Source: Chryseobacterium gleum (lineage in GTDB: Bacteria > Bacteroidota > Bacteroidia > Flavobacteriales > Weeksellaceae). From it: 64,000 nucleotides of DNA. Within the stretch, counting starts at the first letter, position 1; every line of letters begins with the position of its first letter. The stretch lies in NCBI RefSeq assembly GCF_900636535.1, contig NZ_LR134289.1, forward strand, positions 3,861,001 to 3,925,000, read 5' to 3'. Shown here piece by piece: positions 57,225 to 61,343 of this stretch. The notes under the pieces were generated by a model. It worked only from the letters and a program-made list of their open reading frames with translations, was not told the origin of the DNA and searched no databases. The position numbers and the translations under genes are program-made.

Positions 57225-58598
57225 TTAGTTCTTTAGCCTCAATTTTTTTAAGAATTTAGTTTGTAACATTTTTAAAAGGTAATTTAAGCTAATATTTTTC
57301 TCTAAATAGTTATAATCCTTTATTTTTATTTCTAATGCTCTTTTTTCTTCGAAAGGTCTTAAAAGTGCTTGTTGGCAAGTGATGTATTGCGTTTTCAGGT
57401 TATCGAAAACATCTTTATTATTTTTAAAATGCTGTAATAAAAACTTCAGAGAGAACATTGTGTTTACAATCTGGTCAACTGTATTTTGTGTACTCCATAT
57501 CCCGCTTCCAACTCTGTAAGCTGCCATTTCCTCTGGGAAATATTTTATAAGACCAAAAGAAGCGTTCAGTAAGTGCAAAGGGTAATCGCCGATAGGAGAA
57601 TACTTCATCCATTCCGGAAGTTTTTCAAAATTTTTTCTGAATACAACTGAAACAGTAACGATAAAATTTTCTTTTGATAAATCTTCTAAAGTGTATGTTT
57701 TTTCCTCATTTGGATTATCATAAGAAAATCTCTCTTCTCTTGTTGTGATTTCCTTGATTTTATGAAAAGTAAGACTGTATTCCGGATTTTTTTCTAGAAA
57801 GTCAATCTGTTTTTGAAGTTTTAAAGCATCAATCCAGTAATCGTCACCTTCACAAATTGCAATATATTTTCCGGAACAGTTTTCATAAGTCATATTTTGA
57901 TTATCTACTGCTCCTATATTATTAGGATGAAGTAAAAGCTTAAATTTCCCTGGATATAATTTTTGATAATTTAGCAGTATTTCTCTGGAATTATCTTTTG
58001 AGCAATCTTCTCCAACTACAATATCATAGTTGAAATTTGTTTTTTGCTCTAATAAACTATCAAGGCAATCTTTTAAGTATTGTCCATGGTTATATACCAT
58101 TACAAAAATGCTAACGGTAGTTTTTTTAAGTTGAGATAGCTGTAATGACATCTTAACATTGCCTGGATTCTCTTCAGTAACTACAAAATTATTTCTTTTA
58201 TAAGATTCTACAGCTGCAATATTTTCAGGCTTTACATATAAGTATATTTCAGAAAACTTCAATACTTCTTTAGCATAATAAAGTATCTGGTATGTTGCTA
58301 ATTGAGAGATTCCTTTCCCCCAAAAGTCTTTATTGCCGATGAAAATATGAAACTCTGCAGTATTATTTTCAATATTATTAAGGTGAACATTTCCGATATA
58401 TTCGCTGTCACATAAAATAGCAAATCTTTTGCTTTTTTCATCCTGAAGAACTTTTACAATCCATTCGAATTCTATTTCTTTAGTAATTTCTATATCGGGA
58501 CGGGAGCCTGTAAATTTCCAAACTTCCGGATCGTTTCTCCACTGATATGAAATAAGCGCATCTTCTTTTTGAAGAGGTCTGATTAAAACATTATACAT
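57225..58598 (-). CDS. GNAT acetyltransferase fused to a family 2 glycosyltransferase
   Basis: The 457-residue protein joins two enzymes. Residues 1-150 form a RimJ/PseH-like GNAT domain (VLIRPLQKEDALISYQWRNDPEVW, FIGNKDFWGKGISQLATYQIL). Residues from about 158 on form a GT2 domain (TVSIFVMVYNHGQYLKDCLDS, VVGEDCSKDN, CEGDDYWIDALK). GNAT enzymes of this type N-acetylate amino sugars; the partner amine could come from the DegT aminotransferases nearby. One protein could then acetylate an amino sugar and transfer it or the next sugar. There is no frame break at the junction. It starts inside the end of the split aminotransferase gene. Confidence 0.87.
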   Translation of the reverse strand: MYNVLIRPLQKEDALISYQWRNDPEVWKFTGSRPDIEITKEIEFEWIVKVLQDEKSKRFAILCDSEYIGNVHLNNIENNTAEFHIFIGNKDFWGKGISQLATYQILYYAKEVLKFSEIYLYVKPENIAAVESYKRNNFVVTEENPGNVKMSLQLSQLKKTTVSIFVMVYNHGQYLKDCLDSLLEQKTNFNYDIVVGEDCSKDNSREILLNYQKLYPGKFKLLLHPNNIGAVDNQNMTYENCSGKYIAICEGDDYWIDALKLQKQIDFLEKNPEYSLTFHKIKEITTREERFSYDNPNEEKTYTLEDLSKENFIVTVSVVFRKNFEKLPEWMKYSPIGDYPLHLLNASFGLIKYFPEEMAAYRVGSGIWSTQNTVDQIVNTMFSLKFLLQHFKNNKDVFDNLKTQYITCQQALLRPFEEKRALEIKIKDYNYLEKNISLNYLLKMLQTKFLKKLRLKN

Positions 58599-59543
58599 TT
58601 TCTAAAATTTTTCTCATATCATTAATAGAGTATCGCTGATCTATGGGAAGTGCTATAATTTCCTCTGCCAAAATGTAGGAGTTGGTTTCTTCACTACACC
58701 ATTCAAAAACATTGGGCCAATAAGTGGCACAATAAATTTTCCTATTGATAAGTTGCTTTTTGAGATCTTTATTTTTAGTTCTGAAAGGATAAACCATAGG
58801 GACTGAATCTTCTGAAATATCAATTTTTAAAAGATTATTTTCTTTTAATTTTTCATTTAGAAATGCGAAATTTTCTTTTCTTCTTTTTTTATATCATCAA
58901 AATTTAAGGTAGAAAGAATTTTTTTGGTAAGATTGGACATTAATTTTATAGGCTGGTTTTCCAATGACCTATCATTTGTACAAAAATCAAGGTATGCTTC
59001 TTCGGCAGACAGATCAATTCTTTTCAAAAGATGGCTCATTCTATTATAGCTTTCATCTTTTTCAAAATCCAAATTAATTCTTTTATTACTGCTTAAAAGA
59101 CCTCCATCAGCTACCCCTACAAATTTCCTTGGAGAATAAAAAGTATCAACGCCTGTTATTGGTAAAGAGAAAAACGCCTGAGCATTATCTATTATTATTT
59201 TATCAAAAAGTCTTTCGCACAGAATATTGATAAACTTATCTTTTATCCCAAAATAATTAGTGTACAAAAATATTTCCGAATCTTTTATTTTAGAATAATC
59301 AAATATTGGTTCCAGGTTGAAATCTATATCATAGAATTCGTAGTTAATATTAAGTTTTTTGATGGGTTCTAAGAGAACATCACAAGTATAATATGCAAGA
59401 TAAATTTTTGTGCTTTTTCTCGCCAATAGGATATACTCCAAACAGTTTCTAGCTGAATTTAACTCAATGAAATCCTTATCCCAATTATTTACTGTATTGG
59501 GAAGTTCCAGCTCAAAATATCCTCCTATTGATTTCGTACTCAT
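58591..59543 (-). pseudogene. DegT-like PLP aminotransferase split by a one-base frameshift in an A7 run
   Basis: The first 228 residues run from the ATG at 59543 to a TAA at 58857, starting MSTKSIGGYFELELPN. They carry ELNSARNCLEYIL, DNAQAF (the cofactor Asp) and the PLP-lysine motif YSPRKFVGVADGGLL. The C-terminal part reads on in the -1 frame as FAFLNEKLKENNLLKID, PMVYPFRTKNKDLKKQL and ATYWPNVFEW to a stop at 58591. Joining them gives about 318 residues, close to a full DegT fold. The switch point is an A7 run at 58884-58890. It forms a perfect A_AAA_AAA slippery heptamer in frame zero, so the gene may still be read by -1 frameshifting, be phase-variable, or be dead. It overlaps WbqC by one base. 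Confidence 0.82.
58884..58890 (-). promoter_or_regulatory. A7 slippery heptamer inside the split aminotransferase gene
   Basis: Seven A residues on the coding strand, read in frame zero as ..A AAA AAA G. A -1 slip continues in the frame that encodes the missing C-terminus (RRKENFAFLNEKL) and avoids the frame-zero stop at 58857-58859. A classic -1 site, but no downstream stimulator was established by eye. Confidence 0.6.
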
Positions 59544-60259
59544 TAAATTAATTCAAACTGGTCCAACATATCATTTATTTCCTCCGGAGAATTAAACATC
59601 ATAAGATCAATTATAGATAAGCCACTTTCAAAAGACTCTCTTTTTTGATCATAATGAGGAAGTTCCATTTTTTGAAAAGAAATATCTATATTATTAGCTT
59701 TATATTTATCTCTATCAAAAAAATCCATTCCACCAATAGGATTTATATAGTGTAAATTACCATTTACCGGAAGTTTTTTACAGATATTTAAAGCCCATTC
59801 ATCAGGTGCAGTAGGTTTTTCAATTTCAAGATTCATCCTGGAAAATACAGGAAGATCTTTGTAGAAACCTAAATATTCACATATTTTTTCTAATGAATTT
59901 TTATTTAGGCTGACAATATCATTGTAATCTTCATCAAATATTTGATGTATTACCTTAAGTGTTTTGTAATAATAAGGAGCTTTTTTCTTGTAAATTTCCA
60001 ACTGAGATAAAATTTTGTTTTTCCAGTTTTGCGAATTATCAATAAAACAATCTTTTATAAGAGTTTCCCGGGGACTTTTTACTAAAGGTACTTGTACATA
60101 TAACCAACCTTCATTTTGTTTCAAGATTCTATTTCTCTCTATCCAGCCATGTTTTATAAATTGAACAGGATCAAAAAGAATGAAAAGATCAGAATGCTTA
60201 ATAAGACTTATATAGCCAAGATATGGTAAAAAATAGGGCTGCATTATTGCTACTTTCAT
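59543..60259 (-). CDS. WbqC family protein
   Basis: The 238-residue protein starts KVAIMQPYFLPYLGYISLIKHSD, the hallmark of the WbqC family, and has FVQFIKHGWIERNRIL-like (VQFIKHGWIERNRI) and LDQFELI at its end. Members are found in O-antigen and glycan loci beside DegT aminotransferases. Their reaction is not established as far as I know. Some are proposed to use acyl or amino donors in sugar modification, so pairing with the aminotransferases here fits. It overlaps the split DegT gene by one base and starts 1 bp after the DegT at 60261. Confidence 0.9.
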   Translation of the reverse strand: MKVAIMQPYFLPYLGYISLIKHSDLFILFDPVQFIKHGWIERNRILKQNEGWLYVQVPLVKSPRETLIKDCFIDNSQNWKNKILSQLEIYKKKAPYYYKTLKVIHQIFDEDYNDIVSLNKNSLEKICEYLGFYKDLPVFSRMNLEIEKPTAPDEWALNICKKLPVNGNLHYINPIGGMDFFDRDKYKANNIDISFQKMELPHYDQKRESFESGLSIIDLMMFNSPEEINDMLDQFELI

Positions 60260-60260
60260 A

Positions 60261-61343
60261 CTAATTATTTTGTATTCTTAACATTAATCTTGCAATATAT
60301 TCAACCTCTTCAAAAGTGAGATCATAATAAAACGGAAGACATAACACTCGTTTGGCAATATCTTCAGTAACAGAAAGTTCCAGTTTTGGCAAATACGGCA
60401 ATGCGGAAGCTAAACTTGGATAAAAATATCTTCTTGTAAAAATTTCCTGTTTATCCATCTCATTTTTTAATTTCAGTAATAATTCTTCACTTTCCAAAAC
60501 AACAGGATAGTAAGCATGATTATTGTTAGCTTTTAAATGCCAGAGGGGCTTTACAGCGTGTAAATTTTTAAGTTTTTCATCATAGAGTTCTGCGAGTGCT
60601 TTTCTTTTTTCATGTATCTGAGAAATGTATTTTAGATTAACAAGTCCCATTGCGGCATGAAATTCTGAATTTTTACCATTAAGGCCCAATTCCGAGAATG
60701 AATCAAAGCCTGAAATTCCAAAGTTTCTGATATAGGCCAGTTTTTTTAGCAACTCAGGATCTTTTGTTATCAATAAACCTCCTTCAACACTATGATAAAG
60801 TTTTGTTGCATGCAGCGAGCAGGTCGAAATATCACCATATTCAAAAATGGATTTTCCGTTCACTTCCACTCCAAAAGCATGTGCTGCATCATAAATTACT
60901 TTTAAATTATGTTTTTTTGCAATTGCTTCTATTGCTTCTACGTCACACGGGTTTCCATAAACATGGGTTGCGAGAATTGCGCTGGTTTTTTCCGTGATAG
61001 CATCTTCAATTTTTTTAGGATCTATACATAAGCTTTTAGCATCGATATCAACAAAAACAGGGGTGCATCCTTCCCAGACAATTGAGCTGGTGGTTGCAAT
61101 AAAAGAAAATGGAGTAGTAATTACTTCACCTGAAATTCCCAATGCTTTTATTGCCATCTGAATGGCAACGGTTCCGTTGGTTACAAACAGCAGATGATTA
61201 AGCTTTAAATGATCTTTAAGTTCCATTTCAAGCTGACTGGCTAGTGGTCCCATATTGGTGAGCCAGTTTCTCTTCCAGATGCCATCTATGTATTTTTCAT
61301 ATTCTTCCTGAGGTGGAAGAAAGGGTTGTGTTACGGGAATCAT
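60261..61343 (-). CDS. DegT/DnrJ/EryC1/StrS-family sugar aminotransferase
   Basis: The 360-residue PLP enzyme has the N-terminal PVTQPFLPPQEEYEKYIDGIW, NGTVAIQMAIKAL, DAAHAFGVEVNG with the cofactor Asp, and the Schiff-base lysine in SLHATKLYHSVEGG. It should transaminate a nucleotide-linked keto-sugar with glutamate, giving an amino sugar (3- or 4-amino-dideoxyhexose). With RmlA at the right edge, a dTDP-linked sugar is likely. It is the intact partner of the split DegT-like gene and lies 2 bp ahead of WbqC. It follows the ABC ATPase by 8 bp. Confidence 0.93.
   Translation of the reverse strand: MIPVTQPFLPPQEEYEKYIDGIWKRNWLTNMGPLASQLEMELKDHLKLNHLLFVTNGTVAIQMAIKALGISGEVITTPFSFIATTSSIVWEGCTPVFVDIDAKSLCIDPKKIEDAITEKTSAILATHVYGNPCDVEAIEAIAKKHNLKVIYDAAHAFGVEVNGKSIFEYGDISTCSLHATKLYHSVEGGLLITKDPELLKKLAYIRNFGISGFDSFSELGLNGKNSEFHAAMGLVNLKYISQIHEKRKALAELYDEKLKNLHAVKPLWHLKANNNHAYYPVVLESEELLLKLKNEMDKQEIFTRRYFYPSLASALPYLPKLELSVTEDIAKRVLCLPFYYDLTFEEVEYIARLMLRIQNN

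Follow-up and report, generated by a model that had tools for sequence, protein, structure and literature searches.

The best reading of a putative sugar aminotransferase gene that is split between two reading frames in the genome of Chryseobacterium gleum is a single-base homopolymer error of sequencing or assembly, and this reading was considered highly probable. The gene lies in the window analyzed here, a stretch of 64,000 nucleotides that corresponds to positions 3861001-3925000 of the single-contig 5.6 Mb genome (G000). A sequencing error is the most likely cause of the split because the same assembly breaks its sole rplB gene in a similar manner. The error would be a one-base indel that remained uncorrected in a homopolymer of the assembly, and the gene in the living organism is most likely intact. 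It would encode a PLP-dependent sugar aminotransferase of the DegT fold, approximately 317 residues long, as part of a surface-polysaccharide cluster. Among the explanations that were weighed, the indel error ranks first, a real and recent contraction of the run second, recoding a poor third and an old pseudogene last. Even a site that looks convincingly slippery can result from an error in the assembly. The features of the locus are, in window positions:

57225..58598, minus strand: fusion of a GNAT acetyltransferase and a family 2 glycosyltransferase
58591..58890, minus strand: C-terminal piece of the aminotransferase gene, read in the -1 frame and aligning collinearly with the C-terminal parts of intact relatives
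58884..58890, minus strand: A7 run (T7 on the plus strand), site of the frame change
58857..59543, minus strand: N-terminal piece of the putative DegT-fold sugar aminotransferase, 228 codons, stop at 58857
59543..60259, minus strand: WbqC-like protein (PF08889)
60261..61343, minus strand: canonical DegT/DnrJ/EryC1/StrS aminotransferase (PF01041)

The layout of the split given in a preliminary description of this DNA, namely a reading frame that stops at 58857, a missing C-terminus that continues in the -1 frame and an A7 run at the junction, was confirmed in every part. The stop codon of the N-terminal piece (ORF 59543-58857) is in frame following the A7 run, and this piece carries the probable PLP lysine, K140. 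The run itself reads A_AAA_AAA G in frame zero, so that the slippery heptamer described earlier is present and its phase is right. The C-terminal piece stays open in the -1 frame down to its own stop at 58591 and is 97% identical to the C-terminus of the Chryseobacterium oranimense gene, with lower values for other relatives; this continuation is genuine homology. The frame break exceeds what is expected by chance, whereas the presence of the heptamer does not.

Genes for an ABC transporter and for sugar-nucleotide metabolism (named from a reading of their translations) are located upstream and point to a surface-polysaccharide cluster. The last 8 bases of the aminotransferase gene are shared with the start of the GNAT/glycosyltransferase gene. 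Within up to 6 kb of flanking sequence at 52 named loci, relatives of the canonical DegT gene were found near 28, relatives of the WbqC-like gene near 16, and relatives of the GNAT/glycosyltransferase gene, recognized by either domain, near 33.

Structural modeling suggests that the gene product is a divergent DegT-fold sugar aminotransferase. The model of an intact relative (P0001; pLDDT 88.4, pTM 0.87) was compared with the PDB by Foldseek, and an aminotransferase fold was found, the best matches being DegT-type sugar aminotransferases such as WlaRG, WbpE and ArnB (E down to 3.2e-12; TM of approximately 0.6 when normalized to query length). Though these DegT/DnrJ/EryC1/StrS enzymes are the closest folds, the modeled protein has about 40 residues fewer than those of known structure, shares about 15% identity with them and superimposes at an rmsd of 7-11 Å. 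It also differs from them in lacking a family match: Pfam and NCBIfam searches with the two pieces and with intact relatives (seven scanned with Pfam, five with NCBIfam) gave no family over its cut-off, and the best PF01041 score was 11.2 bits for P0001 against a cut-off of 19.8, with none of the seven intact relatives above it. A sequence profile search of solved structures likewise returned nothing at E up to 1, and the fold comparison alone gave matches. The upstream position of the PLP lysine had been noted before and was borne out, since K140 lies in the N-terminal piece and is invariant, together with D119, across the 35 relatives that were aligned out of the 120 matches listed. Both residues align with those of the canonical DegT neighbor in a weak profile alignment (E 0.011); we take K140 to be the PLP lysine and D119 the aspartate at the pyridine nitrogen, roles assigned from the family. 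The frame change as written falls inside a helix (residues 215-233 of the P0001 model); a protein cut off there would be missing roughly 97 residues at its C-terminus and would probably be inactive. The homolog search found 7078 proteins, and 118 of the 120 matches listed are 300-330 aa long. This makes up a family of over 7000 homologs with a DegT-type fold in which no intact member scanned passes the family cut-off.

A comparison with related genomes, which had been proposed as a check, revealed that the relatives keep a single frame. A match to the gene was detected in 18 of 173 genomes of the genus, this one included. Both halves are in one frame at the junction in 16 of the 17 genus relatives, the seventeenth (G143, E 4.8e-4) being not assessable, and the same holds for 51 of the 52 loci of the named collection, a set that includes the C. 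oranimense gene of G072 again as L021. C. oranimense, the source of the closest named proteins, has A8 at the aligned place, and the other relatives show various codons and run lengths there, the run being conserved neither in length nor in presence. P0001 is intact with 317 aa and differs from the window sequence at 3 of 217 N-side residues and at none of 96 C-side residues. The ancestral gene therefore had one frame, and the copy in the window is the exception. Both halves also look constrained in the comparison with C. oranimense, as the N half differs by 29 synonymous and 15 nonsynonymous codons out of 217 and the C half by 8 and 3, respectively, out of 97. The 400 kb surrounding the window show extensive synteny to C. 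oranimense DSM 19055 (G072), with a mean DNA identity of 79% in blocks of more than 800 bases. Another protein, P0009, is as close to the window sequence as P0001, although its record is without the first 34 residues. In Parvimonas sp. oral taxon 393 str. F0440, a distant relative (L066 6001-6827) shows a partial C-terminal match that is off-frame with respect to the N-terminal match.

Of the four explanations raised in the preliminary description, a sequencing error is the one that gained support, because rplB and sufC are also broken by one base at short A runs. Both are genes that a cell needs and that cannot plausibly be switched off. The further breaks detected in the genome, all of them outside the window, are:

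G000:C1:4041645-4042448: rplB (ribosomal protein L2), the sole match in the genome, one base missing at a short A run
G000:C1 near 3675479: sufC, one base missing at a short A run
G000:C1 near 4117266: metH-like gene
G000:C1 near 4018821: pncB-like gene
G000:C1 near 4085728: TonB-receptor-like gene
G000:C1 4083205-4081597: second TonB-receptor-like gene, two frame changes

The names rplB and sufC are backed by family searches; metH, pncB and TonB receptor were assigned by reading the translations. The rplB match comprises 235 open codons and is interrupted by 3 stops; in each of the other 37 genomes that gave a match, the frame is open and free of internal stops (39 genomes were searched, and G156 gave no match). 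For sufC, the best family E-value was 4.7e-53 in this genome and better than 1e-105 in 170 of the 173 genus genomes, and the sufC-family search revealed no intact second copy here. The best sufC-family matches of G128 and G145 are also weak, perhaps owing to base-level errors in those assemblies too. An essential-gene control, in this case rplB, goes far to settle whether a split gene is error or biology, and other split genes in the same genome should be checked before a biological reading is adopted.

A census of frame breaks was used to place these cases in context. Eight of 509 testable C. oranimense ORFs change frame in this genome, and 6 of 509 (rplB, sufC, the metH-like, pncB-like and TonB-receptor-like genes and the aminotransferase) remained after inspection of the alignments. 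The two dropped were C. oranimense ORF 135790-136632, a start-codon artefact with a 24-codon extension before the likely start, and C. oranimense ORF 858331-858927, for which the break is on the C. oranimense side and the ORF of this genome is open over 405 aa. Five of the six breaks have one base missing at an A or T run, and the pncB-like break has one base extra. In the reverse direction, 3 of 520 ORFs of this genome change frame in C. oranimense, of which 2 of 520 were real on inspection (the ORF at 4120805 was a start artefact, its N-terminal extension being poor). Rows that showed internal stops but no frame change (4 for this genome, 11 in reverse) were excluded from the frame breaks, and in 13 of these 15 the stops lie within the first 50 codons. 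The census leaves out window genes too diverged from C. oranimense, and it supersedes an earlier, looser census over 400 kb that gave 12 versus 12 rows. The second TonB-receptor-like gene stands outside the six, as it appeared in the looser census and was unlisted by the stricter filter; its two frame changes were confirmed.

Two results speak against an error. The excess of breaks is modest and not significant (6/509 versus 2/520, Fisher p = 0.17), and the homopolymer length spectrum per 400 kb gave no clear general shortening of A/T runs in this genome (length 7, 289 versus 298; length 8, 61 versus 88; length 9, 11 versus 8; length 10, 2 versus 1). The additional TonB-receptor-like break favors an error and the non-significant count disfavors it, which left the odds as they were. 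The weight of the argument lies with the identity of the broken genes and not with their number, and the assembly is not trustworthy at the level of single bases. The gap in the aminotransferase gene would share its origin with those in rplB and sufC, and insufficiently polished long reads would be the cause. In one published long-read assembly, indel errors were mostly false deletions and were linked to homopolymers of 2-8 bases, most often of A/T (PMC12007338). Similar to those errors, the assembly studied here is missing one base at A/T runs, and several genes are affected, housekeeping ones included; in contrast to those cases, it was judged from its sequence rather than from reads, and the sequencing method is a presumed one.

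A real, recent contraction of the A run by one base would have produced a null allele, possibly as one state of slipped-strand phase variation. This was considered unlikely. A true contraction is plausible in itself because an A8 run should rank with the more mutable positions of a gene, and C. oranimense has eight A's in this place. Genes for surface polysaccharides are a classic setting of phase variation. In addition, the copy in G118 (L017 1284-2220), one of the 16 in frame at the junction, carries two breaks further upstream, in the N half and near A runs, while sufC of G118 is intact, and the absence of the first 34 residues from P0009 may mean another upstream break. Set against a contraction is the same type of defect in rplB and sufC, neither of which is plausibly switchable. 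Runs of at least seven A or T are moreover ordinary, as they occur in 326 of 564 mechanically called ORFs of at least 150 aa in 800 kb of this genome (337 of 583 in C. oranimense), and the run in question varies in length and presence among the relatives. If the run is truly seven, the gene would be a candidate surface-sugar switch; in the part of the literature covered by a limited search, no case of homopolymer phase variation in Chryseobacterium was encountered and only an Ornithobacterium study was obtained. Phase variation of the aminotransferase gene, as suggested previously, retains a small probability but is not supported, and no positive evidence for it was encountered. A combined scheme was regarded as quite improbable. 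In this scheme, some cells of the population would carry seven A's, slippage to eight and back would turn a surface amino sugar on and off, and low-level recoding would leave residual full-length enzyme.

Recoding at the heptamer, by programmed -1 ribosomal frameshifting or transcriptional slippage, would yield both a 228-aa and a full-length product, and it was judged very improbable. The window gene shares the heptamer and the direction of the shift with insertion sequences that use A_AAA_AAA or A_AAA_AAG, and the phase is correct. The dnaX gene is another case of programmed -1 frameshifting at such heptamers. Unlike these systems, the window gene has neither a frame break that is conserved in relatives nor a significant stimulator. 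A programmed site should persist among relatives along with its frame break; among the genus relatives and the named-collection loci the break is not conserved, which leaves recoding unsupported, and with 16 of 17 genus relatives in frame at the junction the relatives have no need of it. RNA folding of 81, 61 and 41 nt after the A7 run, a test that applies to structures other than pseudoknots, detected no significant stimulatory structure. The 81-nt and 41-nt pieces fold like shuffled sequences (z 0.51 and -0.38), and the 61-nt piece folds mildly better (z -1.61; 15 of 200 shuffles as good), which is the one folding result in favor of recoding. An insertion-sequence cluster with A_AAA_AAA is named as a proven frameshift case that is stimulated by a stem-loop (PMC4066793). 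The run in the window has seven bases, whereas selection against slippage-prone A/T runs becomes evident at nine nt in a large proportion of 108 genomes (PMC1088944). In-frame A_AAA_AAA heptamers are also ordinary, being present in 138 of the 564 ORFs of this genome and in 145 of 583 in C. oranimense. The slippery motif by itself carries no meaning here, and the programmed frameshifting proposed earlier fell away given unbroken relatives, a common motif and the folding results.

A long-standing pseudogene, the decay considered in the preliminary description, is hardly credible: the frame is broken as written, but the C half stays open as far as its own stop and differs from C. oranimense by 3 nonsynonymous codons in 97, none of the 96 C-side residues compared differs in P0001, and both halves of the gene look constrained.
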